Origin: Oscillospiraceae bacterium
GTDB lineage: Bacteria > Bacillota > Clostridia > Oscillospirales > Oscillospiraceae
Assembly: GCA_017432615.1 (NCBI GenBank)
Contig: JAFRIV010000039.1
Location: 1-64,000, forward strand
DNA length: 64,000 bases
Direction: 5' to 3'
The position numbers and the translations under genes were made by a program. The notes beneath the pieces were generated by a model, which was not told the DNA's origin, did not search any database, and saw nothing but the letters and a program-made list of their open reading frames with translations. Within the stretch, counting starts at the first letter, position 1. The number at the start of each line of letters is the position of its first letter. Shown here piece by piece: positions 46,176 to 62,778 of this stretch.

Positions 46176-46355
46176 TCAAAGATGCTGATCTCGCTTGACG
46201 CGATCATAGAACCAAAACAGCACCGGTTCCATTTTTGCGGTTAGCTTCATATCCAGATTCAGGATGTAGATCACAAAGGTCACTGCAAATGCGCCGCAGG
46301 CAAAGAGAAAAAGCCTGAGCAGGATCTTCAAAACAATATTTACAATCTTATTCAC
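46176..46355 (-). CDS. small single- or two-pass membrane protein, last in the redox operon
   Basis: 59 residues from a GTG (VNKIVNIVLK) with AAGGGAG five bases upstream; a longer frame would overlap the previous gene without a ribosome site. One long hydrophobic stretch (about 6-35) and a charged C-terminus (FYDRVKRDQHL). Not recognised. It starts 17 bp after the dehydratase-subunit gene, so it is probably part of that operon. Confidence 0.55.
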   Translation of the reverse strand: MNKIVNIVLKILLRLFLFACGAFAVTFVIYILNLDMKLTAKMEPVLFWFYDRVKRDQHL

Positions 46356-46371
46356 GGTTTCTCCCTTCTTA

Positions 46372-47946
46372 TTACCAGGATTCGGCGTCATTGATCACTT
46401 CAAGTGTCGGATCTACGGGCTCTTCCTGCATCACGGTACGCATATAGCTGTTGATCTGATCCCGTACTCCCTGGCGGGAAATCACACGCGGATCAAACAG
46501 ATCGTGAGAGACCCACACAAGATGGATCCCCCGTTCCCTTGCGCGCTCTTCAAACAGACCATGCATACCATCCAGTGCCTTGCAGCTCATATGCTCCCAG
46601 AGGATAACCATATCGGCATTAAACTCCTCTACGATTTCCCACAGCTCGTCAAGCAACACTTTATAACCGCCGTGTGTGCGGTTGCGCATGATCATGTTTT
46701 CTGTAAGCCAGGCAATATCGTAAATAGCCTGTTCACGGTTTTCCGGGGTATCCGTTTCCGCTATCATTTTGGTGGACACCATGGACAGCATATCCGTCAG
46801 CGGCACAATCCCCCAGCAGTTGAGCAGCCAGACCAGAAAGTCCATATAATAATGCGACTGCACTCCCCAGATGATAGCCCGATGACGATATTCGTTGGCT
46901 GCCATCTTTTTCTTCCGGAAAGCTTTTTCGGCAAGAGCAGTGATCTTCCGGTCGGCTTCTTCAAAAGCTGCGATCCTTCCGCTGATTGCCATATAGTTTG
47001 TTTCGGTATAGAGCGCCAGGTTGGAACCGAAGACCTGCGGATACGGTGTTTTATTCATATCCAGCCATTCCATACGGCATTTCGTGGCATAATTGACACG
47101 TTTGGCACATTCAAAATAGTGTGTCCAATCCCACTTCTCACCGGTTTCTTTTTCAATAAACGCGATCGCATTGCGGATCTCCTGTGCAGCATATTCCTGC
47201 ACGTCATCCTCCTGGTGCCGCAGCGGTGTTGCCAGCTGGAATATCGGCACTCCGTCTTCCAGTTCCAGCCGTTTGGAAATGACACCGTTCCCCATAAGGG
47301 AACCGTCGCAGGTGGTGTTGCATTGTACAGCACATTTTCCGAGAATCGGTGCATCATCATCAATAGATACGCCGGCTTCCGCTTCCGGCATCGGGCAGAC
47401 ATCCCCCGCCAGGCCATATTCCTGTGCTACATCAATATAGTGCAGTGCCGCACGCTGATTGAGCAGAACCGGGATATAGGTAGAAGCGATCTCACGGCTC
47501 AGCGGTACCAGTGTCGGGAAGCCCATCATCAGTGACTGCATCTCATTTTCGTCCACCAGCACGACCTTGTCGGAAAATGCCTTGTCATTCCCGATCCGCC
47601 TGTCACCCCGGAACAGTTTGTCAAGGAGCTTCGCCACATCGTCAATGATCAGATCCTGTTCGGCATGGCAGATGCGCAAATGCTCGCCCCGCAGCCCCTG
47701 GGTATGCCGGTCTACCATCATCGGAACGGCGAGATAGTTTGCCATCCAGCGATAACGGAACATGGCTTTGATGTTTCGCGGTTTGGAAAGGACCACGCGG
47801 AACATGGTGACCCAGTTATAAAGCCAGCGGGAGTAGTCATACAAAGTATCCGGCACGCCGCGCCACTCCCGGTATTTCCGGACCCTTCCGTCAGAATAGG
47901 CTTTCCCGAAGTCTTTTGCTCCCACTCTTTTTTCTGCAGCCTTCAT
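46372..47946 (-). CDS. 2-hydroxyacyl-CoA dehydratase/benzoyl-CoA reductase family subunit (long form)
   Basis: 524 residues from the ATG whose A is shared with the previous stop (TGATG), with GGAGG six bases before. Related to the HgdA/HgdB, BcrB/BcrC family that carries a 4Fe-4S cluster and performs radical dehydration or ring reduction on acyl-CoA. Cysteines possibly binding iron are in GKCAVQCNTTCDG (about 203-215) and WEHMSCKALDGMHG (about 440). An N-terminal extension of about 100 residues makes it longer than the usual 400-430. Forms a likely heterodimer with the product of the overlapping gene. Exact reaction unknown. Confidence 0.75.
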   Translation of the reverse strand: MKAAEKRVGAKDFGKAYSDGRVRKYREWRGVPDTLYDYSRWLYNWVTMFRVVLSKPRNIKAMFRYRWMANYLAVPMMVDRHTQGLRGEHLRICHAEQDLIIDDVAKLLDKLFRGDRRIGNDKAFSDKVVLVDENEMQSLMMGFPTLVPLSREIASTYIPVLLNQRAALHYIDVAQEYGLAGDVCPMPEAEAGVSIDDDAPILGKCAVQCNTTCDGSLMGNGVISKRLELEDGVPIFQLATPLRHQEDDVQEYAAQEIRNAIAFIEKETGEKWDWTHYFECAKRVNYATKCRMEWLDMNKTPYPQVFGSNLALYTETNYMAISGRIAAFEEADRKITALAEKAFRKKKMAANEYRHRAIIWGVQSHYYMDFLVWLLNCWGIVPLTDMLSMVSTKMIAETDTPENREQAIYDIAWLTENMIMRNRTHGGYKVLLDELWEIVEEFNADMVILWEHMSCKALDGMHGLFEERARERGIHLVWVSHDLFDPRVISRQGVRDQINSYMRTVMQEEPVDPTLEVINDAESW

Positions 47947-49139
47947 CACACACCTCCGTGTATCTTCTTGATCTCAATGCTCTCGATAAACGCCTGGACT
48001 CTGGTGCGCAGCTGCCCTGTACCGGACGTATTGTAAGGCCGGTCAATGGAGAGAACAGGATAGCCGTAATCATCGTGCATCACGTGGGATCCGACCATGC
48101 GTTCATACGCCCATGGATCGCAGAATTTGATCTGTTCGTACAAAATACCGTCAGCCTTGTATTCTTTTGCCAGTTTATCCACATAACTGCGTCGGCCGAG
48201 GATCTTGGCCTGATTCATATATCGCGGGCACTGCCCCCGATTCATATATTGGCGGCAGATCTGTGTGAGAGCATCTTCCTCCTCCGTCAGAGTAATAGGA
48301 TCCCGTCCCGGGAAGGACCCGTAACAGAAGCGGTCTGCACAGACAAAAGCGCCGGTACTCTCGACGAGTTTGATAAATTCGGGATCATCCACCTCCGAGC
48401 CGACAATCAACACCCTGGCACGGAAATTGTCCTTGGCGTCCGGCTGGCGCGTTTTCAGTTCCTCAAGGGTCTCCTCGAGTTTCTCGATCAAAAGATACTT
48501 GGGGGCAGCATAAGTAACCAAAGTGATCACGCAGAATTCATATCCCGTGATTGTCGGATGATCTCCCTTGCGGAATTCCCCTATGGCGCGAATCAGGGAG
48601 CAGACGCGGTTATGCTCTTCCACAGCCTTGCGAATGGCCTGGTCTGAGCAGTCAATTCCGAATTTCTCCGAAAGCGGTTTCAGGATATGATTTTTACACT
48701 GAAGCACATAGAGATTCAATCCGTTATCGTCGGCTTTCATCGGGATCTCCATGTTTTCGTAAAAGAAGTTTTCTTTTCCTTCATCCATTGTGTGGAGCAG
48801 TTCCATATTCTCCACAGCGCGGTTGATCATGGTACAGCCGTCCGGTGCAATCAGACAGTCGGCAAAGTTATATCCGCCTTCCATTGCCCGTTCCAGCAGA
48901 GCGCGGCTGTATTCACAGAGAAAGCTGGTGAGATAATAAGTCGCCATTTCCATGGAACTGGTGCGGGGGGCACGCAGGCGCGCTGAGAAGACACCATCCA
49001 GGTTCAGCAGCGGTTCGGGAGTGTTTTCGCATACATAAGCCACGCATTTTTTCCCCTCATCGCGTGCCTGAACGACCAGCTCGTTGTTGGCATCCTGCAG
49101 AAGGTCTTCAAACCAGGTCAAATGTTTTAAATCTTTCAT
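47946..49139 (-). CDS. 2-hydroxyacyl-CoA dehydratase/benzoyl-CoA reductase family subunit (short form)
   Basis: 397 residues, HgdB/BcrC-like. Motifs include the CLIAPDGCTMINRAVENMELL segment (about 94-114) with two Cys, then ARVLIVGSEVDDPEFIKLVE (about 238) and the late EQIKFCDPWAYER (about 335), where family members place an Fe-S Cys. No ATPase activator (HgdC/BcrAD type) is encoded near either subunit, although the family normally needs one. Stop overlaps the partner's start by one base. Confidence 0.78.
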   Translation of the reverse strand: MKDLKHLTWFEDLLQDANNELVVQARDEGKKCVAYVCENTPEPLLNLDGVFSARLRAPRTSSMEMATYYLTSFLCEYSRALLERAMEGGYNFADCLIAPDGCTMINRAVENMELLHTMDEGKENFFYENMEIPMKADDNGLNLYVLQCKNHILKPLSEKFGIDCSDQAIRKAVEEHNRVCSLIRAIGEFRKGDHPTITGYEFCVITLVTYAAPKYLLIEKLEETLEELKTRQPDAKDNFRARVLIVGSEVDDPEFIKLVESTGAFVCADRFCYGSFPGRDPITLTEEEDALTQICRQYMNRGQCPRYMNQAKILGRRSYVDKLAKEYKADGILYEQIKFCDPWAYERMVGSHVMHDDYGYPVLSIDRPYNTSGTGQLRTRVQAFIESIEIKKIHGGV

Positions 49140-49169
49140 CGATATAATCCTTTACCAGACTGTGTCTTT

Positions 49170-49514
49170 TTAACAGGCTACAATTTGCTTGATATTCATC
49201 TCATTACCCTGCTGCAGCCAGGTTTCCCCGCTGCCGCAGTGAGGGCATGTCTTTCCATATTTCATGGTCGGATACGTGGTTTTGCAGGCATTGCACCAGG
49301 TTACAGCGGGAATCGTCTCATACAGCAGCTGTGTATGTTCGATCAGGGGCGTTTTTTTGGCAAACCAGTTCCAGCAATCCACAAGATATTCCGGCATGAC
49401 GCCTGATACCTCGCCGAATTCCAGCGTTACCGATTCAATATCGGTCAGGTCATTGTCTTTTGCAATCTCCTTTACCTGGTCAATGACATAGGTAACGATA
49501 CTCAGTTCGTGCAT
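49170..49514 (-). CDS. HypA/HybF-like metallochaperone
   Basis: 114 residues. Intact N-terminal MHE nickel-site residues and a zinc site of two CxxC motifs (CNAC at about 74 and CPHC at about 91). Helix EIAKDNDLTDIESVTLEFGEVSGV is family-typical. HypA inserts nickel into [NiFe]-hydrogenase or urease, yet no hydrogenase, urease or hypB gene is seen here. It lies between a giant Fe-S/FAD oxidoreductase and the dehydratase pair, with a hairpin (49530-49561) upstream. Confidence 0.88.
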   Translation of the reverse strand: MHELSIVTYVIDQVKEIAKDNDLTDIESVTLEFGEVSGVMPEYLVDCWNWFAKKTPLIEHTQLLYETIPAVTWCNACKTTYPTMKYGKTCPHCGSGETWLQQGNEMNIKQIVAC

Positions 49515-49529
49515 TTTTCCGATTTTCTG

Positions 49530-49561
49530 AAAACAGGCGCGGATAACTCCGTGCCTGTTTT
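49530..49561 (-). terminator. intra-operon hairpin upstream of the HypA-like gene
   Basis: AAAACAGGC (49530-49538) pairs with GCCTGTTTT (49553-49561), with further CGGA/CCG pairing inside. On the minus strand the hairpin ends in TTTT. It may partly terminate transcription or stabilise the upstream mRNA. Confidence 0.55.
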
Positions 49562-49579
49562 TCAGGGCTTCCTTTCCGA

Positions 49580-52351
49580 TTACTTTTTCCCGGCAAGCTG
49601 TTTTTTAATGATCTTGACTTCGCGCTTTGCAGCATAAGCTCCGATCTCTTTAAACTTGTCTTCCGCCGGAACCATCTTGCTGTTCTGCGGTCTGTCACGC
49701 TTCAGGTGGATCGCATCAAATTCGCATTTGGTAGTGCATATCCCACACCCTATGCACTTATTCGGGTCAACAACGCTGCGCCCGCAGCTCAGGCAGCGGG
49801 AAGCTTCGGCACGGATCTGCTCCGGTGTAAAGGTAATACGGTCATCTTCCATGGTCCTGACCTTCTTCGGGTCGATGGAAACCTCCGTACGTGCCGGCTT
49901 TTTGATCTTCTCTGCCGGCAGAACGATATTGCTCTTGTCCAGTTCGACAAAGTGGCGCGTATTCCTGTGCAATGTAAGAGATTGGCCGACATTGACAAAC
50001 CGGTGGATAGAAACAGCGCCTTCCCGTCCGGTGGCAATGGCATCAATGGTATACATCGGGCCGGTTGCGCAGTCACCGCCGACAAAGATGTCGGGTTCAG
50101 CCGTCTGGAAAGTAACTTTATCATGCTCGATCAGTCTGCCGTCGGGCGTCTCCGCCTTTGTACCCGCGAGCACAGCACCGTAATCAGATCTCTGACCGAT
50201 GGCGACAAGCACCGTGCTGCAGGGAACGATGATCTTCTCTTCTTCATTATATACCGGTGCAAAGCGGCCGGAGGCGTCACGGACGGAAACACAGCGCATC
50301 AATTCGATGCCTCTTACCTGACCGTTCTCTCCGAAGATTTCTTTCGGTGCCCAGGAATTATGGATCCCGACGCCGTCGGCAATACCGGCATTTTTCTCAT
50401 CGGGTACGGTGGGCATTTCTTCATCCTTTTCCAGGCAGTAAATATCCACGCTGCCGTCGGTAAAGCGCTGCGCAGCACGAGCCACGTCGATTGCCGCATT
50501 ACCGCCGCCGATTACTACCACATTCCCATGGAGTTTTTCCATCGTCCCGGCATTGACTTTTCTCAGGAAGTCCAGTCCGCCCGACACCCCTGTCAGGTCT
50601 TCTCCGGGGATATTCAGCTTTGATGCCTTCTGCAGACCGACCGCCACATAAAAAGCTTTGAAGCCTTCCTCCCGCAGCTGCTGGATCGTAATATCTTTGC
50701 CTACTTCGACACCGCAGCGGAACTCTACGCCCATCTCGCGCAATACATCGATTTCGGAATTCACGATCTTCTTATCAACGCGGAAATTGGGCATGCCGTT
50801 TACCATCATGCCGCCCGGCGCCTTTTCCTTTTCAAATACGACCGGACTGTACCCTTCAATTGCCAGGAAATACGCACAGCTCATGCCGGCCGGCCCGCCG
50901 CCGATGATGGCAACTTTCTGGTCAAACCTGGCACGGGTGCAGGAGTTCATCGGCGGGATATACCGATGTTCTGCCTTCATATCCTGCTCGGCAATAAACT
51001 TTTTGATCTCGTCGATCTGAAGAGGTGCATCTATCGTGCCCCGTGTACAGGCATCTTCGCAGTACTTGCGGCAGATGCTGCCGCAGACGGCCGGGAACGG
51101 ATTGTCCTTCTTGATGAGTTTGAGAGCATCCTGGTACTTGCCGTCGCCTGCCATCTTGATATAACCCTGGATTGCGATGTGTGCGGGACAGGCAGCCTTG
51201 CAGGGAGCCGTGCCGGTAGGCCATGTCTGAATACAGCCGTTTTCATTCCGGTAATTCTTATTCCATTTCTCTTCGCTCCAGGGGGTGTCATCCGGCAGCT
51301 CATGGTGCGGATACGCAATGGGTCCTTCTTTTGTGCACAGTTTCTGCCCAAGGCGGACAGCCCCTGCCGGGCAGGTCTCCACACACTTGCCGCAGGCTAC
51401 GCACTTTTCCGGATCACTTTCTGCGGTATAGGCAGAAGCTGAAAGATTCGGCGTGTTGAACAGCTGAGAAGTTCTCAGCGCATTGCATACGCCGACAGCA
51501 CAATTGCAAATCCCGAAGATTTTATTCTCGCCGTCGATATTGGTGATCTGATGGACATAACCGCGGTCTTCTGCCTTCTGAAGAACCTCCATGGCCTCTT
51601 CGTACGTGATATCGTGGCCATGACCGGTCTCGCGGCAGTAATCGGCAAAATCACCGACGCCGATGCACCAGTCGCACTCAATATCCCCTGAGCCTTCGTT
51701 GCGGATGCGCTGCTGTTTCCGGCAGGAACAGACAGAAATACCGATCTGTCCATCATACTTTTTCAGCCAGTGGGAAAGATGTTCGATCGGCAGGCTTTTG
51801 CTCTCCGCCGGGATCGCTTTTTCTACCGGGATAACATGCATGCCGATACCTGCTCCTCCGGGAGGTACCATCTGCGTGATGCCTGCCAGCGGCAGATACG
51901 CCATGCGTTCAAAAAAGTCTGCCGTTTCGGGGAACATGTCCCCATGCTCGGGATGGATCATCATGATCTCTGCACTGCCCGGAACAAACATATCCAGCAC
52001 CCAGCGCTTCTCATGGTTCGGATTCTTTCCGTCGAGATTTTCGTGATGATACTCGACCAGGCCGCTTTCACTGATGGCCTGCAATGCTTTCAGAAGATAC
52101 TCATCATCAAACTGAGGATTCTTTTCCTTGAGCTGAGCAAACGTCATCGGGACACGGCGCTTCATGGTCAGAGCGATGTCCAGAATATCATCTGCCATCT
52201 TCTGGTCGTATTTTACTGCAGTAAATTTCAGGGCGGAGTTAATACCGAGGTATTCCGGAGATTCCGGCGTGATAGGCTTCATGCGAAGCATTGTGGCATA
52301 GTAGTCTGTAATCTCTCTGCCAAGTTTCGCGATTTTTTCGTCTCTTGTCAT
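49580..52351 (-). CDS. multidomain Fe-S/FAD/NAD(P)H oxidoreductase (GltD-like core), copy 2
   Basis: 923 residues. Domains: helical N-terminus (1-205); Cys-rich Fe-S region (CSC at 208-210, CDWC at 226-229, CNC to C at 282-289); 4Fe-4S ferredoxin motif CVACGKCVETC (317-327); GltD-type Fe-S entry domain (CKAAC at 384, CGSICRKYCEDAC at 423); FAD domain GGGPAGMSCAYFLA (484-497); NAD(P) domain GGGNAAIDVAR (615-625); C-terminal 4Fe-4S segment CLSCG...CIGCGICTTKC (853-876). It likely moves electrons between NAD(P)H and ferredoxin-like centres. After the second glycine motif it reads YCLEKDEEMPT, losing the Arg pair used for NADPH in GltD. Paralogue of the next gene upstream. Confidence 0.82.
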   Translation of the reverse strand: MTRDEKIAKLGREITDYYATMLRMKPITPESPEYLGINSALKFTAVKYDQKMADDILDIALTMKRRVPMTFAQLKEKNPQFDDEYLLKALQAISESGLVEYHHENLDGKNPNHEKRWVLDMFVPGSAEIMMIHPEHGDMFPETADFFERMAYLPLAGITQMVPPGGAGIGMHVIPVEKAIPAESKSLPIEHLSHWLKKYDGQIGISVCSCRKQQRIRNEGSGDIECDWCIGVGDFADYCRETGHGHDITYEEAMEVLQKAEDRGYVHQITNIDGENKIFGICNCAVGVCNALRTSQLFNTPNLSASAYTAESDPEKCVACGKCVETCPAGAVRLGQKLCTKEGPIAYPHHELPDDTPWSEEKWNKNYRNENGCIQTWPTGTAPCKAACPAHIAIQGYIKMAGDGKYQDALKLIKKDNPFPAVCGSICRKYCEDACTRGTIDAPLQIDEIKKFIAEQDMKAEHRYIPPMNSCTRARFDQKVAIIGGGPAGMSCAYFLAIEGYSPVVFEKEKAPGGMMVNGMPNFRVDKKIVNSEIDVLREMGVEFRCGVEVGKDITIQQLREEGFKAFYVAVGLQKASKLNIPGEDLTGVSGGLDFLRKVNAGTMEKLHGNVVVIGGGNAAIDVARAAQRFTDGSVDIYCLEKDEEMPTVPDEKNAGIADGVGIHNSWAPKEIFGENGQVRGIELMRCVSVRDASGRFAPVYNEEEKIIVPCSTVLVAIGQRSDYGAVLAGTKAETPDGRLIEHDKVTFQTAEPDIFVGGDCATGPMYTIDAIATGREGAVSIHRFVNVGQSLTLHRNTRHFVELDKSNIVLPAEKIKKPARTEVSIDPKKVRTMEDDRITFTPEQIRAEASRCLSCGRSVVDPNKCIGCGICTTKCEFDAIHLKRDRPQNSKMVPAEDKFKEIGAYAAKREVKIIKKQLAGKK

Positions 52352-52393
52352 GCTTATTCTCCATTCATTTCCATTTCAGGTCATTTTATCTGT

Positions 52394-55207
52394 TCAGGCT
52401 CTTTTACCTGCGACCTTTTGCTTCAGATCCTTCTTCAGGATCTTTACCGCGCGTTTTGCTGCATACGGCAGAAGATTTTTCATGGTTTCCTCTCTGGGAA
52501 CCATATCGGAACATTCAGGCAGATCCCGCTCCAGATGAATGGCATCGAACATGCAGCGTGTGGTGCACAGCCCGCATCCGATGCACTTGTTCGGGTCAAC
52601 AACAGAAGCTCCGCAGCCGAGGCAGCGGGAGGTCTCCAGCTTAACCTGTTCCTCAGTCAGCGTCCTGTTGAAGTCGGCAAAAGTATGCCGGTCGACCGAT
52701 TCATCGATCCCGGCCTCCTGGCGTGCCGGCTTCTTCACAGCCTCCGGATCCAGTACGACACTCTTTTTATCCAGTTCAATGAAATCACGGCGGTTGCGGC
52801 CGAGTTCCAGGGAGGTGTTCGGGCGCATAAAGCGGTGCAGGGAGATAGCGCCTTCTCTGCCGTGTGCAATGGCATCGATAACAAACTTTGGTCCGGTGAA
52901 AACATCTCCGCCGACAAAGATGTCCTTCTGAGCAGTCTGATAAGTCAGTTCCGCTGCCTGGATCGTACCGTTGCGATTAAGAACCATGCCTTCAGGATCA
53001 ATGCCTCCCAGGTCGACCTGCTGGCCGATCGCTCCAATCACGGTATCCGCCTTGACAGTGGCATATTTCCCTGTCCCCACAGGCTTTCTCCTGCCCTTTT
53101 CATCCGGCTCGCCAAGTTCCATGATCTCCGCTTTGAGCGAATGGACTTTGCCGTCTTCCCCGAGGATCTCCACCGGGTTGCAAAGGAATTTGAAATGCAC
53201 CCCTTCCTCTTCGGCTTCCCGCACTTCCAGATCTTCCGCAGGCATTTCGTCTCTGGTACGGCGGTAGTAGATCGTCACATTCTCTGCCCCAAGCCGAACA
53301 GCGCTGCGGGCAACATCGATTGCCACATTTCCGCCCCCGACAACGGCAACGGTTCTTCCTACGGCAGGTGCATTGTTCTCCGCAATGGCATGCAGGAAAT
53401 CCACTCCATAGAGCACGCCCTTCAGCTCTTCCCCGGGAATGCCGAGTTTTGCCGCCTTCTGGGCACCGATTGCGAGATAGAATCCCTCATAGCCTTCTTC
53501 TCTCAGCTGCGGGATCGTGACATCTTTACCGACCTCAACACCGCAGCGGATCTCCACTCCCATTTCGCGCATTACATCGATTTCGGCATCAATGATTGCC
53601 CGTTCCAGCTTATAGGAGGGAATGCCGTAGCGCAGCATGCCGCCCGGAAGCGGATTCTTTTCAAATACTGTGGGATAATAGCCCATCTGCGCCAGATAAT
53701 AGGCACAGCTCAAACCGGCAGGGCCGGCACCGATAACAGCTACTTTTCGGCCTTCAAAACGTCCGTACCGCTTCATGGAATGGATCGGCGGAATATAACG
53801 CGTCTCCGCATTCAAATCCCGATCGGCTATAAATTTCTTTACCGCGTCAATAGCCACGGCTTTATCTACTTCGCCGCGCATGCAGGCGTCTTCACAGCGC
53901 TTGTTGCAGACTCTGCCGCATACAGCCGGGAAGGGGTTATCCTGCTTGATCAGTGCCAAGGCTTCGTCATACTTGCCTTCGGAAGCAAGCTTCAGGTAAC
54001 CCTGAATGGCAATGTGTGCCGGGCAGGCAGTCTTGCAGGGTGCTGTGCCGGTATCATAGCAGTTGGTGCGCGCGTCATAGCGGTAATTCGGATTCCAGCG
54101 TTCTACTCCCCAGTGGTTGTCATCCGGCAGATCGCGCACAGGATAGGAAACCGGGCCATCCTTGGTGCAAAGCTTCTGCCCAAGCTTAACGGCACCGCCG
54201 GGACAAACTTCCACACACTTGCCGCAGGCTACACACTTTTCTTTGTCAACATGCGCCACATAAGAGCAGCGGGAAAGATTCGGCGTCTGGAAAAACTGGC
54301 TGGCACGCAGGGCGTTGCAGGTGTTGATATTGCAGTTGCAGATGCCGACGCAGCGATCCGCACCATCCAGATTTGTGACCTGATGTACACAGCCAAGCTC
54401 CTCCGCTTTTCTGAGGATCTCTTTTGCCTCATCAAGCGTGATATAGTGGCCGCGTCCCGTTTCTACGATAAAGTCTGCCAGAACGGAGGTAGCAATGCAC
54501 ATATCTTCCCATTCTTCTCCGCTGCCTTCATCCAGCGTCTCTCGTGACATACGGCATACACAGGGCATTGCTGCCAGCTTGTGGCCGTATTTATCCAGCC
54601 AGAAGGAAAGCTTCTCACAATCAACTGCTTCGCTGACATGCTCAATTGCCTTCTGCACCGGGACGACATGCATGGCCATCCCGGCACCTCCCGGAGGAAC
54701 GAGATTTGTTTTTCCGATCAGCGGTTCAAAAGCCATGCGGTCGAAAATGTAAGTGGACTCCACATGTTTGTCGACCATGGATTTTTTCATGCCCATGTAT
54801 TCCCCGCTGCCGACAATATAGGGAGGTACGGTATATACCCGGCCACGGTCTTCCGTCTCTTCAAAATCGCAGATGCCCACATCACAGAGCTGGTCAAAAA
54901 CCGGTTTCAGCTCTGCCCAGGGACGTTTATTCATTTTTTCCAGTTCCGGAATTGTATACGGTTTATGGATGGTCATTTTCAAAGCGACTTCTGCCATCTC
55001 ATCCGTGACCCAGGGATCCATTCCGTAATACTCGGCATCGGTGGTCTTGATTTCTTTGACAAACTTGCGGTCGGTGATATGCAGGCCGAGTTTCTTGATA
55101 AGAGGTCTTGCATCCTCTTCCCTGGTAAACTCGATCGGCGGTTTCATCTGTGTCCAGCGCTCATACTGCTCCTGCCACATCTTATCGCCGTATTTGGTGT
55201 CTGCCAT
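52394..55207 (-). CDS. multidomain Fe-S/FAD/NADPH oxidoreductase (GltD-like core), copy 1
   Basis: 937 residues, the same domain order as its downstream paralogue: N-terminal helical part, Cys-rich Fe-S region (PCVCR, then GICNCNINTC), ferredoxin motif CVACGKCVEVCP, GltD-type entry domain (CKTACPAHIAIQGYLK, then CGRVCNKRCEDAC), FAD motif GAGPAGLSCAYYLA, NAD(P) motif GGGNVAIDVAR and a C-terminal CLGCG...CIGCGLCTTRC. It keeps YYRRTRDEMPA, the Arg-rich NADPH signature of GltD. One Cys of the paralogue's ECDWC site is absent here (WEDMC). AAGGAG ribosome site. Probable electron-input protein of the operon. Confidence 0.82.
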   Translation of the reverse strand: MADTKYGDKMWQEQYERWTQMKPPIEFTREEDARPLIKKLGLHITDRKFVKEIKTTDAEYYGMDPWVTDEMAEVALKMTIHKPYTIPELEKMNKRPWAELKPVFDQLCDVGICDFEETEDRGRVYTVPPYIVGSGEYMGMKKSMVDKHVESTYIFDRMAFEPLIGKTNLVPPGGAGMAMHVVPVQKAIEHVSEAVDCEKLSFWLDKYGHKLAAMPCVCRMSRETLDEGSGEEWEDMCIATSVLADFIVETGRGHYITLDEAKEILRKAEELGCVHQVTNLDGADRCVGICNCNINTCNALRASQFFQTPNLSRCSYVAHVDKEKCVACGKCVEVCPGGAVKLGQKLCTKDGPVSYPVRDLPDDNHWGVERWNPNYRYDARTNCYDTGTAPCKTACPAHIAIQGYLKLASEGKYDEALALIKQDNPFPAVCGRVCNKRCEDACMRGEVDKAVAIDAVKKFIADRDLNAETRYIPPIHSMKRYGRFEGRKVAVIGAGPAGLSCAYYLAQMGYYPTVFEKNPLPGGMLRYGIPSYKLERAIIDAEIDVMREMGVEIRCGVEVGKDVTIPQLREEGYEGFYLAIGAQKAAKLGIPGEELKGVLYGVDFLHAIAENNAPAVGRTVAVVGGGNVAIDVARSAVRLGAENVTIYYRRTRDEMPAEDLEVREAEEEGVHFKFLCNPVEILGEDGKVHSLKAEIMELGEPDEKGRRKPVGTGKYATVKADTVIGAIGQQVDLGGIDPEGMVLNRNGTIQAAELTYQTAQKDIFVGGDVFTGPKFVIDAIAHGREGAISLHRFMRPNTSLELGRNRRDFIELDKKSVVLDPEAVKKPARQEAGIDESVDRHTFADFNRTLTEEQVKLETSRCLGCGASVVDPNKCIGCGLCTTRCMFDAIHLERDLPECSDMVPREETMKNLLPYAAKRAVKILKKDLKQKVAGKRA

Positions 55208-55276
55208 GTTGATTTCTCCTTTATTTGTTTTTCTCTCTATTTCCTTATTTTCTCACTTTGGTCCAAAGTGATAGGT

Positions 55277-56467: not shown

Positions 56468-58014
56468 TTCTTCCCCTCCTTTTCCTTCTTCTGAAGATCC
56501 TCGCGCACAGCTTTTGCCGCCGCGCGACCGTTGGTGATCTGCGGGCCCATGCCGTCTCCCGACATGCCGTGTGCTCCTGCAAATTCAAGGCCTTCGATGA
56601 AATGATCCTCTTCTTTCATGCCGAGACGTGCCACCGCATGGTCTGCCATGGAATGGGAAAAACCGTAAATCTGGCCTTTCCAGGCCCCCACATAGTGGGA
56701 TACCGTGACAGGAGAGGAGATCTCGATTTCTTCAATGTTCTTGCGGAAGTCGATCTTTCCTACCTCCCGGATATAGGTCTCGATCATTTCATTGGCCAGA
56801 CGGCGTTTGAGATCAAAGTAGTCTTCTTCCTTAACTTCCAGCCAAGGTTCGATCGGTACAAGCACCGTGATCGAGAGCTGAGTATACCCTTCCGGCGTAC
56901 AGGAGGGATTGGCATAATTGAGGCAGATCGTGGTAATGTAGTTATAGGGTTCGGTAAGATTGGAATAGTTGGCCCAGATCTTGTTGGTGTCCATCGTCTC
57001 CCCGGAGAATGTGGAATAGTTGTAAACGCCGTTCTCTTCCGGTGTGCCCTTCAGGATCATCATCACGGACACGGGAGCCACGGCAAGTTTTCTGCCGTTG
57101 ACCATTTTTATGGCCGCCGCAGGCACTTCGCTGAGCGGTTCGATCATCTGGGTATATACTTTGTTGGGATAAGGACCGGAAATGACATAGTCACATGAAA
57201 TCTCGTCACCGCGTCTGGTACGGACCCCGGTGACCTTCCCGTTTTTGACCAGGATTTTTTCCACTTCTTGATTGAACTCATACTGTGCGCCGTTTTCTTC
57301 ACACTTTGCCTGCATCTTCATGCTCATCTCATGTGAAAAACCGCGGCAGACATAAGACCCGGTGAAGTAGTCAGCCATCAGAAAAGCATAGATGGTAAAG
57401 GGCAGTTCATCCATACGGTTCCCCACATAGATCCAGTACGGGGTGAGCATCTCCACGACCTTCTGCGGGAACTGGAAGGTATTCATCACTTCCGTTGCAC
57501 TGTAGCCGATAGTTCGCACAAAATCAGGATGCTTGAGGAGCATTTGCACCTTGCTCATCGGATGCACGGAAAGATAATTCATGCTGTCATACACGCGTCT
57601 GCAAAGCTGCATAAACGACAGCACCTTTTCATACACGCCGGGTATCTGTGCATCGATCTCTCTGGCCATGGTTTCATACCCGTCATGCAGGGTAATATCG
57701 ATGTCGGAATTCGGCAGCACGGCACGATAACACTCCGGAACGGGAAGCCAGTCGATATCCACATCCATATCTTCAAAAAACTGACCGACTTTCAGCCTTT
57801 GGCCCGGCCTGCCGATGGACATCATTTCATGCAGGGTAGCCTCCATTTCAAAGCCGTCCCGCATAAAATCGGTTGCGAGACCGCCGGGCATATTGTGCTT
57901 TTCCAAAATGAGGATATCTTTGATTCCCCAGGCCTGAAGCTGCAGACAGGCAGCCATTCCCGCCAGCGCGCCGCCGACAATGACCACCTGATAATGATCT
58001 TTGTAAAAGCTCAT
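56464..58014 (-). CDS. FAD-dependent oxidoreductase of the phytoene desaturase/retinol saturase type
   Basis: 516 residues. N-terminal Rossmann motif VVIVGGALAGMAACLQLQAWG (split here: the GG.LAG.AA core at about 13-20), then LEKHNMPGGLATDF. C-terminal FAD-contacting region GLEFAGAHGMSGDGMGPQITNGRAAA (about 470). Overall fold is CrtI/RetSat-like: such enzymes add or remove hydrogen at isolated double bonds of lipids. No membrane anchor. The tail is very basic (KKEKEGKK). In this operon it is a candidate double-bond reductase acting with the coupled 2Fe-2S reductase; that role is inferred. Confidence 0.75.
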   Translation of the reverse strand: MSFYKDHYQVVIVGGALAGMAACLQLQAWGIKDILILEKHNMPGGLATDFMRDGFEMEATLHEMMSIGRPGQRLKVGQFFEDMDVDIDWLPVPECYRAVLPNSDIDITLHDGYETMAREIDAQIPGVYEKVLSFMQLCRRVYDSMNYLSVHPMSKVQMLLKHPDFVRTIGYSATEVMNTFQFPQKVVEMLTPYWIYVGNRMDELPFTIYAFLMADYFTGSYVCRGFSHEMSMKMQAKCEENGAQYEFNQEVEKILVKNGKVTGVRTRRGDEISCDYVISGPYPNKVYTQMIEPLSEVPAAAIKMVNGRKLAVAPVSVMMILKGTPEENGVYNYSTFSGETMDTNKIWANYSNLTEPYNYITTICLNYANPSCTPEGYTQLSITVLVPIEPWLEVKEEDYFDLKRRLANEMIETYIREVGKIDFRKNIEEIEISSPVTVSHYVGAWKGQIYGFSHSMADHAVARLGMKEEDHFIEGLEFAGAHGMSGDGMGPQITNGRAAAKAVREDLQKKEKEGKK

Positions 58015-58047
58015 TCCTGTCTGTGTTCCTTTCTTAAACAGTATCCA

Positions 58048-58083
58048 AGGGGCTGCGAAGAATGATCTTCACAGTCCCTTTTT
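58048..58083 (-). promoter_or_regulatory. hairpin between the isomerase-like and desaturase-like genes
   Basis: A 15-position stem with two mismatches (58047-58061 with 58066-58080) and a four-base loop. No T-tract on the minus strand. May act as mRNA stabiliser or attenuator. Confidence 0.4.
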
Positions 58084-58095
58084 CAGTAATGATGA

Positions 58096-59481
58096 TCAGA
58101 AGAATCTCTCTACAAGCTCGCGGGAGTATTCTGCCGTTTCATCCATGTCTCCGAAGGACATGATCTCGCCGGCATAGAAAGTGTCATACTTGCCCTGCAT
58201 AGCCTCTACCTTGTCATACCAGCCTGCAGCGTAGTCATCTGAATAGACATGGGGGAAGTAATAGACCGACCAGGCATTTTTCACTTCGGCTGCCGGGTTG
58301 TGCATGGTCTTCAGATCCTCAAGGACCATCTTATTGCACTCTTCATACGGGATTTCCTTCATGTATTTATGGGTGCGAAGAGCGTAAGTGGTGATGATCT
58401 GGTCAATACTGTCTCTCCAGCGACGGTAATAGACCATCAGGTGGCCAAGGCGTTCCTTCACCATGTTGTCAAACACATAGTAGGAGATCTTCGGATGATC
58501 CTCCGGTTTTGTGGTAACAGCCTGAACCGTATAGCGTTCATAATCGATCTTCGAGAAGTATTCCTTCTCATCGTCGCGGGCATCGGCATAATCGACAAAG
58601 CCATTGGTTTCCCCGCGGTTTCCGTCTTTGCAGTAAAGAGGGGCGGTAACGATCAGCTTATCAAACTCTTCCACTCTGCCGTTGACCGTGATGAAGACTT
58701 TGCCGTCTTTTCTTTCCACCTTGGTGATCTCGCTGTTGAGTTCGGCGGAATGTTTCAGTTTGGCATCCAGGCACTCCCAGATATATTGCGTCCCGTTTTT
58801 CCACGTCCAAAGATTGACATTGACAAAATTCATTGTCGTCTGAAAATCCAGATACTTCAGGACATAAGCGGCAGGGATCTCGTCAAAATAGCCATAACCG
58901 AAAGACGTGTAGGGTCCGATCCAGATATCCTGCACAAGTTCAACCCCGTTTTTCTTGCAGAAATCTTTAAAAGGCATGGCAAGATCTTTCAGATTCTCAT
59001 TGGGAAACAGCACTCTTTCCCTGCCGGGGGTAACAGCATATCCGTCACATCTGCCTTCCGCAACGCCTCTGTGACCGTTGACGTCATACCCTCTGTACTT
59101 CGTCTCGAGAATCTCTCCGAATTTCTTCACCTGGCTCTTCATTTTAAGCAAACGAGGGATCTTTGCAATATTCTTTTTCGGTTCAAAGGGTTCAATCACG
59201 TCTCCCCGGCTGTTCTTATAGTTGCGGTTGAGTTTCGGGCCGTCATGTGTGATGCCGCAGAATTCTTCCACATCATGCACCGCATAGTAGGAAGGAACAC
59301 CCATAATAGCGCCCATTTCATAGCGTCTGCCGTTATACGTCGGGCTCCAGCATTTCCCGCCCACACGATTGGAGCGCTCATAAATCACATAGTTTTCATA
59401 ACCCTTTTTTTCCAGATACATACCCGCAGAAAGGCCGGCAGGACCGCCGCCGATAATCGCAATACGAATATTCTTTTCCAT
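58096..59481 (-). CDS. FAD-dependent fatty acid isomerase-like protein (PAI family)
   Basis: 461 residues. N-terminal FAD motif IIGGGPAGLSAGMYLEKKG (about 9-27). It strongly recalls the Cutibacterium polyunsaturated fatty acid double-bond isomerase PAI (linoleate to 10,12-conjugated linoleate): NGRRYEMGAIMGVPSYY (about 50), PAAYVLKYLDF (about 205), GHLMVYYRRWRDSIDQIITTY (about 350; 20 of 21 shown as two parts in that enzyme) and the C-terminal FYAGEIMSFGDMDE. A ~30-residue insert (RPR.. GRCDGYAVTPGRERV) and another near 290 make it longer than PAI's ~424. First gene of the nine-gene operon. Assignment is from memory, without alignment. Confidence 0.65.
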   Translation of the reverse strand: MEKNIRIAIIGGGPAGLSAGMYLEKKGYENYVIYERSNRVGGKCWSPTYNGRRYEMGAIMGVPSYYAVHDVEEFCGITHDGPKLNRNYKNSRGDVIEPFEPKKNIAKIPRLLKMKSQVKKFGEILETKYRGYDVNGHRGVAEGRCDGYAVTPGRERVLFPNENLKDLAMPFKDFCKKNGVELVQDIWIGPYTSFGYGYFDEIPAAYVLKYLDFQTTMNFVNVNLWTWKNGTQYIWECLDAKLKHSAELNSEITKVERKDGKVFITVNGRVEEFDKLIVTAPLYCKDGNRGETNGFVDYADARDDEKEYFSKIDYERYTVQAVTTKPEDHPKISYYVFDNMVKERLGHLMVYYRRWRDSIDQIITTYALRTHKYMKEIPYEECNKMVLEDLKTMHNPAAEVKNAWSVYYFPHVYSDDYAAGWYDKVEAMQGKYDTFYAGEIMSFGDMDETAEYSRELVERFF

Positions 59482-59537
59482 CTTGGAACCCTCCTGAATT
59501 TTTTAAAAATAGATATGGTGCAATTATGCATACTGTG

Positions 59538-59550
59538 GTATATTATATAC
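59538..59550. promoter_or_regulatory. palindromic AT-rich element between divergent operons
   Basis: GTATAT-T-ATATAC, an odd 13-bp palindrome in the 148-bp gap between the two divergent operons. It includes possible -10 sequences on both strands (TATATT and TATAAT); -35 elements are weak. It may be a shared control point. Confidence 0.45.
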
Positions 59551-59629
59551 GATAAAGCGAAAAAATGCTATCCCTTTCTTGTGCATTTTTCTAAATTTCC
59601 GGATTAATTTTTGACGGGGGGGATGTTCC

Positions 59630-61000
59630 ATGCGTTTTTCATCCTTCGACCACATGCTGTCCCATTATGCATCTGTGACTCCCGACGCCATAGCCCTGCA
59701 ATTTGATAAGGGCGGGCGGCAACAATGTTCCTTTGCTGCCCTTTTTGAAGCAGTCAGGCAAAAAGCAGAAATTTTCAGTGCATCCGGAAAGCGCTGCATC
59801 GGTATTCTCGCTGACGGAAGTTTTGACTGTGTCGTTACTGTTTTCGCTGCTAATTTGGCAGGGCTGCAGATTGTTATGCTGGATGCAGCCATGCCGTCAG
59901 CCACTTTGAAAGGCAGCATTCCCTATGCGGATATTGACTGTCTTTGGGGGGATGACGAACTCTGTGAAGAACTGAGGCCGTTTCTGACGAAAGGGCCTGC
60001 GGGAGATTATGCCGACCAGATGCTCTTTTTCACTTCCGGCACGACGTCCTCCTCAAAAGCTGTCACTTTGACAGGCAAAAGCCTGATGAATGCTGCCTGG
60101 AACGGTTCCCAGAAACTTCCTCTCTCTCCCGATGACACGCTGTTATGTATGCTCCCCCTGGGTCACGTGTTTGGTTTTGTATGCGGGCTGCTTTGGGGGT
60201 TAAGCTGCGGAAGCTGTGTAGCCTTGGGAAGAGGAGCCCGGCATTATATGGATGATTGTATTTATTACCGGCCGTCTGTGCTCTCTGTAGTGCCTTCTCT
60301 TCTGGGGTTTCTGATTGCACAGGACTGTCTTGGGAGCAGTGTCCGTCAGATTCTGATTGGTGCAGGTGACTGCCCGCTCTCCCTGATCAATGCCGTGCAG
60401 GCCAAGGGCATCCGTGTCAGCTTTGGCTACGGGCTGACGGAAACCAGTTCAGGCGTCGCCATCAGCACAAAGGGCGATCCCTATGCGATGGAGATCTGCC
60501 CGGATGACACGGTAACAATTGCGCCGGACGGTGAGATTCTTCTGGAAGCCCCTACCTGCATCATGCGCGGATATTATAAAATGCAAAAAGATACGGAGGA
60601 AGTACTCTCCGGCGGCGTGCTGCACACCGGTGACATCGGTTATCTGGATGAAGAGGGCCTCTTGCATCTTACCGGCAGGAAAAAGGAGATCCTTGTTTTG
60701 CCGAATGGAACCAAGATTTACCTTCCGGAGATGGAGGGAAGGCTTTCTTCTCTTCTCGGCACACAGGAGCTTGCCGTGGCGCTGAAGGGCGGGAGGCCGA
60801 TCCTTGTGATTTACGCCCCTGAAAACACAGAAGCTGAGATCCGCAAGGCGATCCGCCCTTTAACAGACGAACTGCCGCGCGGGCAGCAGATCACCGAGAT
60901 TATTCTGCGTGCCACTCCTCTGCCCCGCACCGCTACCGGTAAGATCCAACGCTACAAAATCCACATCCCGAATCAGAACGAAGGAGAAACAGCCCAATGA
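59630..61000 (+). CDS. AMP-dependent acyl (fatty acid) ligase
   Basis: 456 residues, class I adenylate-forming enzyme. P-loop-like motif FFTSGTTSSSKAV (about 130), GYGLTETSSG (about 268), HTGDIGYLDEEGLLHLTGRKKE (about 328, read as adjacent motifs) and the C-terminal catalytic Lys in PRTATGKIQR (about 440). Shorter than typical acyl-CoA ligases (~500+), like stand-alone acyl-ACP ligases. The carrier-protein gene overlaps its stop by 4 bp, so the adenylated acid probably goes onto that carrier. Divergent from the flavoprotein operon. Confidence 0.85.
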   Translation: MRFSSFDHMLSHYASVTPDAIALQFDKGGRQQCSFAALFEAVRQKAEIFSASGKRCIGILADGSFDCVVTVFAANLAGLQIVMLDAAMPSATLKGSIPYADIDCLWGDDELCEELRPFLTKGPAGDYADQMLFFTSGTTSSSKAVTLTGKSLMNAAWNGSQKLPLSPDDTLLCMLPLGHVFGFVCGLLWGLSCGSCVALGRGARHYMDDCIYYRPSVLSVVPSLLGFLIAQDCLGSSVRQILIGAGDCPLSLINAVQAKGIRVSFGYGLTETSSGVAISTKGDPYAMEICPDDTVTIAPDGEILLEAPTCIMRGYYKMQKDTEEVLSGGVLHTGDIGYLDEEGLLHLTGRKKEILVLPNGTKIYLPEMEGRLSSLLGTQELAVALKGGRPILVIYAPENTEAEIRKAIRPLTDELPRGQQITEIILRATPLPRTATGKIQRYKIHIPNQNEGETAQ

Positions 61001-61254
61001 CAAGAGATGAAGTAAGCGCAAAAATCAAAAAAATCATTTTTGACAGTGTCCCGGACCGCGTCCCGGAAGTGATTGAAGAGGATACAGTGATCAACAACGA
61101 TAAGGCTATTGATTCAATGGGATTCATTCTGGTTATCTGCCGCTGCGAGGCGGAACTCGGTGTAAAGATTCCGGAGAGAAAATGGCAGAAGCTCAGCACC
61201 TTCGGAGAAGTTGTGGATGAATTCATGCTTCAGTTGAAGAAGGCCGGAAAATGA
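60997..61254 (+). CDS. acyl carrier protein
   Basis: 85 residues, one carrier domain. The phosphopantetheine site is the Ser in AIDSMGFILV (about 37-46). Helical pattern fits ACP, though it is more basic at both ends (AKIKKIIF and QLKKAGK) than the acidic fatty-acid-synthesis ACP, as expected for a dedicated pathway carrier. ATGA overlaps on both sides with the ligase and thioesterase genes. Confidence 0.88.
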   Translation: MTRDEVSAKIKKIIFDSVPDRVPEVIEEDTVINNDKAIDSMGFILVICRCEAELGVKIPERKWQKLSTFGEVVDEFMLQLKKAGK

Positions 61255-61961
61255 ACATTTTCGAACGTGAAATAGCTATCCGCGATTGTGACTGTGCATC
61301 CAACCGGCTGCTTCGGCCCTCCAGCCTCTTCTCCATGATCCAGGAGATTGCCATTGATCACAGTGAGGAAATCGGAGCAGGGCGTTCCGTTACCTTCGAC
61401 AGGGGTTTTCTCTGGGTGCTTGCCAGGCAAAAGGCAGAGATCGTGCGCCTGCCGGAATACGGCGAGCACGTCATATTTCAGACCTGGCCGGGCAGCACCA
61501 TGCATTTTCTTTTTCCCCGCTACTACCGGATGCTGGATCACAACGGCGAGAGTCTTCTCTCTGCAAGTTCTCTCTGGACACTGATCGATGCGAAAAAACG
61601 ATCCGTCATTTCTCCGCAAAAAGAGGGAATCGTTGTAACGGGAGAAACCACCGGCTATGAAATCGCTCTTCCGTCCGGAATTCGGAAATGCTTCGGAGAG
61701 GAAACCTGCACCTTGACGGTTCCTTACAGCTATACCGATATCAACGGGCATATGAACAATATTTTCTATCTGGACGTGGCAGAGAATATGATTCCGGAGA
61801 TGGCGGGTAAATTGGCATTAAAGGAGATCAGTGTGGAGTATTCTCACGAGATCCTCTGCGGCGAAACGATGACGGTCTCTCTGCACCGCTCCGATCAGGT
61901 CTGCACATTTTCGGGTGACGGAGAAAAGCACTACTTCTCCCTGCTGCTTCGCTATGAATAA
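61251..61961 (+). CDS. acyl-ACP thioesterase (FatA/FatB-type double hotdog)
   Basis: 236 residues, two hotdog repeats. First repeat RDCDCASNRLLRPSSLFSMIQEIA (about 10-33) and WVLARQKAEIVRLP; second repeat carries the active-site pattern SYTDINGHMNNIFYLD (about 160-175, Asn-His pair of the D-x-N-x-H-x-N motif). Releases a free acid from acyl-ACP. In a run with a ligase and ACP, it would close a load-process-release cycle. Overlaps the ACP stop by 4 bp. Confidence 0.88.
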   Translation: MNIFEREIAIRDCDCASNRLLRPSSLFSMIQEIAIDHSEEIGAGRSVTFDRGFLWVLARQKAEIVRLPEYGEHVIFQTWPGSTMHFLFPRYYRMLDHNGESLLSASSLWTLIDAKKRSVISPQKEGIVVTGETTGYEIALPSGIRKCFGEETCTLTVPYSYTDINGHMNNIFYLDVAENMIPEMAGKLALKEISVEYSHEILCGETMTVSLHRSDQVCTFSGDGEKHYFSLLLRYE

Positions 61962-62778
61962 GCTGAACTGTTTTGGCCGGCCAGCGGCAGTGCTTCTTAT
62001 TCTTATCCTGCTTTTGTCTCTTTCCTCTCCCGTTTATGCACTGCTCTCCGAAACGGAGTATAAGCTGATCTCTGACATGGTCTATTCCTACCGCACCCTG
62101 CCGGACGCTTCTCAGAAGCAGATCCGGCAGGATCTCGCCTCACTGAAAAGCATCAACCCTTCCCTGGGTAAAACATGGGAAGAATTAATGGAGTACTGGA
62201 TGTATGTTAACAATGATCTTGTGCTACATTATGATGTTTTACCCGATGGCCTCCCGGAGGATGATTCTCTCTGTATCACCGTGCTGGGATATCAGCTGCT
62301 GCCTAACGGTTCCATGGATGAAGAACTGATCGGCCGCTGTTCTGTAGCTCTGCGGTGTGCCGAACGTTATCCGAAGGCTTTTATCGCGGTAACCGGGGGC
62401 GGAACCGCAATGATGCATCCTGATCTCACCGAAGCAGGCCAGATGGCTGACTGGCTGATGGAGCACGGGATTTCGAAAGATCGGATCATTGTGGAAGATA
62501 ACTCTCAAACAACAGCAGAAAATGCACTTTTTACCTATCGACTGCTTAAGGAAATACCGCAGATCCGGGCAATAGCCATCGTCACCAGCGACTATCATGT
62601 CTCTCTCGGCTGTCTGCTGTTTCAGGAGCAGTTTCTTCTCTCCTCCTATGTGGAAGGAGAAAACAGGTTTTCCGTTTTTACCAATGCAGCTTTTCACCAG
62701 GAAAGCTTAATGTCCTTTACACCCCGCAACCAGGCTCTGGATGTCTGGATGCTGAGTGAAACAATTTTGAATTCATAA
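61954..62778 (+). CDS. exported DUF218 (YdcF/SanA-like) protein
   Basis: 274 residues from an ATG that overlaps the thioesterase stop by 8 bp. Signal peptide or anchor (PAAVLLILILLLSLSSPVYA). Helical stretch (about 28-85), then the DUF218 fold: ITVLGYQL (about 103), VTGGGTAMMHPDLTEAGQMADWL (split in evidence; about 145-167), RIIVEDNSQTTAENALF (about 174) and AIVTSDYHVSLG (about 208). DUF218 proteins act near the envelope and are linked to cell-wall or lipid carriers. Link to the rest of the operon is unclear. Confidence 0.82.
   Translation: MNKLNCFGRPAAVLLILILLLSLSSPVYALLSETEYKLISDMVYSYRTLPDASQKQIRQDLASLKSINPSLGKTWEELMEYWMYVNNDLVLHYDVLPDGLPEDDSLCITVLGYQLLPNGSMDEELIGRCSVALRCAERYPKAFIAVTGGGTAMMHPDLTEAGQMADWLMEHGISKDRIIVEDNSQTTAENALFTYRLLKEIPQIRAIAIVTSDYHVSLGCLLFQEQFLLSSYVEGENRFSVFTNAAFHQESLMSFTPRNQALDVWMLSETILNS

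Follow-up and report, generated by a model that had tools for sequence, protein, structure and literature searches.

A probable isomerisation and saturation cluster for polyunsaturated fatty acids in uncultured ruminant-gut bacteria, with a candidate two-component flavoprotein reductase

The fatty acids that end up in milk and meat are set by microbial biohydrogenation in the ruminant gut, a process whose genes are largely unknown. The described counterpart of the gene at the centre of this study is the polyunsaturated fatty acid isomerase (PAI) of Propionibacterium (Cutibacterium) acnes, whose product is the trans-10,cis-12 conjugated acid. The gene, g9, lies in a stretch of 64,000 nucleotides from an Oscillospiraceae bacterium (assembly GCA_017432615.1, contig JAFRIV010000039.1, positions 1 to 64,000), here called the window, among thirteen open reading frames (ORFs; g1 to g13) at 46176..62778. 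As judged from sequence comparisons, the locus is probably a cluster for isomerisation and saturation (biohydrogenation) of polyunsaturated fatty acids (PUFA) in uncultured ruminant-gut bacteria. Here g9 belongs to a conserved cluster that also encodes a flavoprotein, a 2Fe-2S reductase and three proteins for acyl activation (Table 1).

PAI homologues have been reported in 7 of 228 rumen metagenome-assembled genomes (MAGs), in Lachnospiraceae, Oscillospiraceae and unclassified bacteria; they are of the same isomerase type as g9, and the accessible portion of that paper names no partner genes (PMC10019597). Its main text contains no word beginning with 'reductase'. The conjugated linoleate (CLA) reductase of Butyrivibrio fibrisolvens is described in the available sections of PMC4478896, on the basis of Hughes 1982 and Fukuda 2007, as NADH-dependent with an NADH:rumenate ratio of 1:1 and as membrane-associated; according to the same sections its sequence was reported in 2007, and the enzyme is not in KEGG, COG or Pfam and hence not searchable in genomes. 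NADH-dependent reduction of a conjugated diene is the type of reaction that the g8-g7 pair would share with it. No linoleate isomerase gene was found in the Butyrivibrio genomes examined, including B. fibrisolvens INBov1, as stated in the accessible part of PMC6249431. The CLA-HY, CLA-DH, CLA-DC and CLA-ER enzymes of Lactobacillus plantarum carry linoleate via CLA to more saturated products (PMC13365329, in the part available). This pathway works by hydration, whereas the cluster holds no such set and the genome of the window, which is 87% complete, has no match to the MCRA hydratase; the 0 matches to the oleate hydratase family PF06100 in that genome are counted in favour of the biohydrogenation reading. 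Searches of the open literature turned up no paper describing the cluster, a result that leaves subscription journals mostly outside and is no proof of absence. We class the locus under PUFA biohydrogenation: its isomerase is of a known type, and its candidate reductase is undescribed in the literature searched.

The isomerase is homologous over its full length to PDB entry 2b9w (phmmer E 3.3e-137, 461 bits, residues 2-461 on 4-423), which is labelled 'putative aminooxidase' and which we take to be the PAI of P. acnes; the other 34 solved proteins listed scored at most 37 bits. Both proteins carry the FAD-binding motif. The residues presumably holding the carboxylate in PAI, Arg88 and Phe193, correspond to R86 and F219 of g9, as read by hand from the g9-2b9w alignment, and the two were unchanged in 82 of 82 rows (the window, 80 genome loci and the distant locus L020). 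The isomerase-like identity proposed in a preliminary description of this DNA is thus upheld. Since the carboxylate site is conserved, the isomerase probably takes the free fatty acid, and the order proposed there, with the ligase acting first, is therefore doubtful.

The cluster was compared with relatives of PAI in named genomes, where 467 relatives were found and the best 80 were examined as loci. Clustering of ORFs in these loci gave spurious antisense families, and the counts for the core were therefore taken from tblastn, each covering the loci whose flank, which extended up to about 10 kb per side, was long enough for the gene in question. The flavoprotein gene g8 followed PAI in 75 of 75 loci and the reductase gene g7 in 67 of 68, and all six genes g7-g12 (55277-61961) were present in 53 of 59; these six make up the recurring core. 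The coordinates and strands of all thirteen ORFs, nine leftward and four rightward, agree with the preliminary description, and profile and homology searches agree with the families it named: isomerase, flavoprotein, 2Fe-2S reductase, the Fe-S/FAD/NAD(P) pair g5 and g6, HypA-like g4, the 2-hydroxyacyl-CoA dehydratase-type (HGD-D) subunits g2 and g3, and the ligase, acyl carrier protein (ACP) and thioesterase g10-g12. Its claim that all thirteen form one coherent set, with parts co-occurring elsewhere, held for the six-gene core, and g5-like genes were often found there as well, but g2, g3 and g13 seldom lie beside PAI within these flanks; the thirteen genes are not confirmed as one set. From g9 to g1 the genes overlap or are separated by 30-81 bases, so that one leftward operon fits, and each of g10 to g13 overlaps the next on the rightward strand.

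Table 1. Genes and other features of the locus, with HypB-like genes of related loci; counts are of loci with enough flank.
Feature	Position	Strand	Description and proposed place	Basis
g1	46176..46391	-	71-residue protein	tblastn; travels with g2/g3 and activase operon
g2	46372..47949	-	second, longer HGD-D subunit, 525 residues; neighbour in this clade	PF06050 E 7.7e-35
g3	47946..49139	-	2-hydroxyacyl-CoA dehydratase/benzoyl-CoA reductase-type subunit, 397 residues; neighbour in this clade	PF06050 E 7.5e-85
g4	49170..49514	-	HypA-like protein, 114 residues; accessory	PF01155 E 3.3e-33
g5	49580..52351	-	homologue of g6, 923 residues; accessory	family searches
g6	52394..55207	-	GltD-like NAD(P)H/FAD protein with Fer4 clusters; proposed electron supply, accessory	family searches
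g7	55277..56467	-	FAD/NAD(P)/2Fe-2S reductase, BenC-like, 396 residues; core, proposed electron donor to g8	PF00175, PF00111, PF00970
g8	56464..58014	-	CrtI/CrtISO-superfamily flavoprotein, 516 residues; core, proposed C=C reductase	TIGR02734
g9	58096..59481	-	PAI-type polyunsaturated fatty acid isomerase, 461 residues; core	phmmer to 2b9w, conserved residues
Divergent intergenic region	59482..59629	.	contains TGCAC element	homologous-region motif count
g10	59630..61000	+	AMP-forming acyl ligase, 456 residues; core	PF00501; 67/74 loci
g11	60997..61254	+	acyl carrier protein, 85 residues; core	PF00550; 66/73 loci
g12	61251..61961	+	acyl-ACP thioesterase, 236 residues; core	PF01643, PF20791; 62/69 loci
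g13	61915..62778	+	DUF218 protein; judged outside core	PF02698
HypB-like GTPases	L029:3199-4884, L036:3470-5155, L070:5697-8190, L076:5741-7396			HypA directly beside
HypB-like GTPases	L078:6074-7401, L048:14141-14809, L031:14217-14888			near PAI core

The candidate saturating enzyme is the pair g8-g7. Retinol saturase (RetSat) is grouped with the CrtI/CrtISO superfamily, to which g8 belongs together with CrtI phytoene desaturase and CrtISO; g8 differs from these by its scores below the model cut-offs and by a near-constant 2Fe-2S reductase partner. It matches the phytoene desaturase-type model TIGR02734 (E 8.5e-32, 110.5 bits, cut-off 238.1) over residues 10-511 of 516 and also gamma-carotene desaturase 4rep. 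Its partner g7 combines FAD, NAD and 2Fe-2S domains. In 150 genomes of the family of the window, 19 matches to g8 were found in 13 genomes (27-100% identity, E to 1e-40) and 21 matches to g7 in 15 genomes (E to 1e-40). Of the 19 g8 homologues, 18 have a g7 homologue directly downstream in the same orientation, the gap between the two matches never exceeding 204 bases; the remaining one, in genome G062, is truncated by the end of its contig, and a different contig of G062 carries the tail of a g8 gene followed by g7. The pairwise distances of g8 and g7 correlate strongly over 69 loci (r 0.93), while the g8-PAI value is 0.35 despite g8 lying between PAI and g7; values within the ligase-ACP-thioesterase trio were 0.72-0.83 and those of PAI with the others 0.18-0.51. 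None of 500 permutations reached the g8-g7, g8-PAI or trio values; the ligase-PAI value (0.18) was reached in 7 of 500. From the adjacency and the co-divergence, g8 and g7 look like one two-component enzyme.

A second reading of the pair is that it acts as another isomerase of the CrtISO type, its flavin kept reduced by g7, which would reshuffle the double bonds without saturating them. CrtISO requires reduced FAD, and g8 fits the carotenoid isomerase model TIGR02730 (E 8.5e-26, 90.8 bits, cut-off 586.9) nearly as well as the desaturase model. Against this stand the constancy and co-divergence of the reductase partner and a GltD-like electron-transfer gene (g5/g6-like) directly after g7 in 22 of 50 loci, which together suggest net reduction. 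We consider a second isomerase unlikely, while giving it more weight than any other alternative discussed below.

Two further alternatives concern the substrate. That it might be a carotenoid, a retinoid or another isoprenoid rather than a fatty acid is suggested by the superfamily of g8; the carboxylate residues of the isomerase are, on the other hand, kept in every row, and the acyl-chain trio accompanies the rest of the core in the great majority of loci (the 53 of 59 given above), so that this is the least probable of the alternatives, and very improbable. The trio itself belongs to intracellular acyl metabolism and would be expected if the cluster remodelled endogenous membrane acyl chains instead of dietary PUFA. 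However, PAI would take free acids if its carboxylate site is read correctly, and the record titles point to ruminant guts. We also know of no bacteria of this kind that make methylene-interrupted dienes. Remodelling of endogenous lipids thus appears very unlikely, if somewhat less so than an isoprenoid substrate.

Several observations weigh against PUFA saturation by g8-g7 and have to be set beside it. The CrtI superfamily includes desaturases as well as redox-neutral isomerases, and g8 stays below the TIGR02734 cut-off. Among the g7 matches listed, 2 of 21 lack a g8 partner (G079:C4 and G120:C129), and 7 of the 19 pairs lie in PAI loci, 12 being apart from PAI. Conversely, a distant PAI (55%) in genome G014 (L020:8638-13212, G014:C22) adjoins a g5-like gene and a HypA gene without g8 or g7. 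Seven of 74 loci (L024, L025, L046, L050, L071, L081 and L087) have PAI without the trio next to it. The 80 loci are those most similar to the window and not a random sample, and for the setting, 14 of the 80 record titles leave the host unreadable and 35 depend on how the RUG code is read. Given the pairs apart from PAI and the PAI without g8-g7 in G014, the link between PAI and g8-g7 is strong and not obligate. We read g8-g7 as a two-component flavoprotein family whose substrates may be acyl chains or other unsaturated compounds like them; one of its lineages appears to have been joined to PAI.

The pairs apart from PAI have neighbours of their own. At least 4 of the 12 have a GntR/FCD regulator nearby, which in three cases matches FadR_C, a setting of fatty-acid type that is counted in favour of the main reading. 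TetR regulators accompany at least 2 of the 12, and one pair adjoins an enoyl-CoA hydratase and a 25% match to the ligase. A row g8-g7-g5-HypA without PAI was seen at L149:6218-12024 (G003:C13), with a TetR gene ahead and one ORF between. Genome G109 carries five g8-g7 pairs, and in the PAI loci g8 divides into classes of 35, 38 and 2 of 75.

For the biohydrogenation cluster as proposed here, the genes, their families, the conserved layout and the pairing of g8 with g7 are read directly, and substrate, direction and electron flow we infer. By homology and site conservation, g9 would take free linoleic or linolenic acid and, by shifting a double bond, turn it into a conjugated acid. NAD(P)H would be the source of electrons, which would pass via the FAD and 2Fe-2S centre of g7 to the flavin of g8, which would then saturate one double bond of the conjugated acid. 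With less weight, g10-g11-g12 may load the acid on a dedicated carrier and then release it, so that the saturating step would take place on acyl-ACP, or the product would be kept out of lipids or fed to them; g5 and g6 may, likewise with less weight, supply electrons. The HGD-D subunits g2 and g3, with an ATP-driven activase encoded elsewhere, may form an optional low-potential module that perhaps takes part in the pathway.

A broader proposal is held tentatively, with somewhat less than an even chance: that uncultured bacteria of the ruminant gut, members of Bacillota and also of Actinomycetota and Spirochaetota if their MAG labels are right, carry in this cluster their operon for trans-10 biohydrogenation, and that g8-g7 represents a two-component, NAD(P)H-driven family of fatty-acid C=C reductases, undescribed in the literature searched and kept by anaerobes in several paralogous forms. 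If true, the cluster would explain genetically how the trans-10 intermediates associated with milk fat depression arise. A marker cluster of isomerase and candidate reductase in many uncultured species would make it possible to follow the trans-10 pathway through metagenomes and to test its enzymes one at a time, and the g8-g7 pair, with its five copies in one genome, would be an enzyme family worth exploring by itself.

The HGD-D genes offer another candidate for the saturating step, in which g2 and g3 with their activase, fed by g5/g6, would saturate the acid and g8-g7 would merely prepare the substrate. They share the operon in the window, both fall in PF06050 as do 2-hydroxyacyl-CoA dehydratases, BzdN and double-cubane proteins, and g3 aligns with BzdN (E 1.7e-25) with three matching cysteines, C37, C75 and C340. 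These are invariant in 5 of 5, as are C185, C214 and C456 of g2, of which only C185 and C214 fall within the PDB alignment obtained; three cysteines per HGD-D subunit are presumably cluster ligands. In contrast to these known families, g2 and g3 miss the equivalog cut-offs listed for HGD-D-type families (double-cubane model NF040772, g3 138.7 and g2 33.4 bits, cut-off 350), and the activase is encoded on another contig. The activase itself scores above its cut-off (TIGR00241, 209.5 bits against 125.4) and lies outside the operon on contig C36 of the same genome; in genome G036 (L130) orthologues of g3 and g2 adjoin an activase 92% identical to the C36 one, together with a CooC-like ATPase and an ORF with a CdhC domain. 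Furthermore, g3 homologues occur in 6 of the 8 PAI genomes of the family and in 8 of the 142 others (p 5e-6, relatedness ignored), and all 14 of these genomes have a g5 homologue.

Adjacency speaks against this role. The HGD-D pair was found near PAI in 4 of 80 loci, which is a lower bound because the layout of the window puts g2 more than 10 kb from PAI. It adjoins PAI in the window and in L022, and lies on the other side of PAI in the related loci L037, L038 and L042, two of which have further g3 matches downstream. In six family genomes with PAI, g8 and g7, where the sequence was followed for 12 kb or more past PAI, the pair was found in none, nor did it occur in a further 18 kb beyond L065. 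Genome G084, 100% complete and with the full core, gave no match to g3 at E 1e-30. Of the 14 genomes with g3 homologues 12 have two or more, and orthologues of g2 and g3 also occur apart from PAI (L128, L129, L130 and L134). As a core member by layout the pair was rejected, although HGD-D genes are enriched in PAI genomes. This enrichment raised our estimate for saturation by the HGD-D pair slightly, from very unlikely to distinctly unlikely, and lowered that for the biohydrogenation cluster with g8-g7 as reductase by a small step, leaving it the probable explanation. It may well be that the HGD-D pair and the PAI core belong to one lifestyle.

The PAI gene is rare and patchy. It was found in 8 of the 150 family genomes, including that of the window; a close g8 homologue (at least 55%) occurred in 8, and both in 7. 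Of the seven other PAI genomes, six have PAI followed by g8 and g7 (G109, G123, G080, G084, G036 and G004), and four of these six carry the full six-gene core at one place. In G123 a whole PAI has the ligase and ACP beside it before the contig stops, while the start of another PAI gene, with a trio, lies on a separate contig (L015, L021), and the G109 locus is without the trio, a thioesterase homologue being on another contig. Without correction for relatedness, g8 is present in 7 of 8 PAI genomes versus 6 of 142 others, and g5 in 8 of 8 versus 12 of 142. In a set of 398 genomes of the phylum, PAI at E 1e-50 was found in one, that of the window. Record titles of the 80 loci name a ruminant host in 31 cases and 35 more carry RUG codes, which we take to stand for rumen uncultured genomes; this fits the gut setting with dietary PUFA that had been proposed earlier, and suits detoxification and use as an electron sink alike.

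The MAG labels are Bacillota, Actinomycetota (2) and Spirochaetota (2), and the rows of Coriobacteriaceae (2) and Sphaerochaetaceae (2) were nested among Bacillota in a quick tree of modest support. PAI identity is 78-81% in ten far genomes. For comparison, IMPDH (found in 10 of 15 genomes) is 37-38% identical in seven of these ten, where it is perhaps another IMPDH type, and 71-93% in three near ones, and GlyA (found in 7 of 15) is 51-62% identical in five of the ten and 64 and 72% in two near ones. Horizontal transfer of PAI is likely, not proven; the claim is weakened because PAI is a slowly changing protein (its mean pairwise identity over the 80 loci is 86%, that of its neighbours 50-68%), the labels come from MAG titles and contigs may be mis-binned.

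The two large accessory proteins g5 and g6 are 51% identical. Both are GltD-like and carry additional Fer4 clusters, as would suit proteins that transfer electrons from or to NAD(P)H. Their N-terminal domain of about 310 residues contains cysteine motifs; in g5 it had no Pfam match to E 5 and nothing in the PDB beyond ferredoxin-like stretches, and in g6 it had one Pfam match, at E 0.02. A catalytic role for this domain was considered, and the Pfam and PDB searches gave no family. The HypA-like g4 scores above the PF01155 cut-off (114.5 bits, cut-off 28.9) and below that of TIGR00100, the equivalog of the nickel metallochaperone HypA (75.3 bits, cut-off 88.1); similar genes were found in the flanks of 18 of 80 loci, where they commonly adjoin g5-like or HypB-like genes or the thioesterase gene.

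The carrier protein g11 falls below the PF00550 cut-off (E 0.0025, 18.5 bits, cut-off 20.8), and a DSMG motif was found in 50 of 68 ACPs, a pattern too narrow to be relied on. In the divergent intergenic region, [AT]TGCAC occurred in 32 of 68 homologous regions (the window and 67 others) against a maximum of 17 in 40 shuffles, which ignore relatedness. An operator-like element was seen around AAA[AT]TGCACGA followed by a T-run, and the copies of the window are without the T-run. A promoter scan gave 15 hits against 15.3 expected.

The small protein g1, for which no Pfam family was found to E 0.01, was placed by tblastn beside g2 in L128, L129, L130 and L134 and beside the activase in L126. The set of CooC-like ATPase, acyl-CoA dehydratase activase and CdhC-domain ORF was seen at L126:5912-8508 (contig C36 of the same genome) and L130:2341-4758 (G036), and CooC-like genes also adjoin g3 paralogues in L115, L116 and L117. 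Contig C3 of the same genome encodes a 1410-residue protein with two BadF-type stretches and DUF2229 (L127:3108-7340), which we take to resemble the plasmalogen synthase PlsA. The last rightward gene, g13, was rejected as a core member, a similar gene being found in 1 of 80 loci and one more in L157 upstream of L036. In 7 of 80 loci the PAI core has HypB-like GTPases in its vicinity, a count that, alone among those given, rests on crude ORF clustering; two of the GTPases were checked with Pfam, and tandem pairs of HypB-like genes were seen in L029, L036, L076, L078 and perhaps L070.

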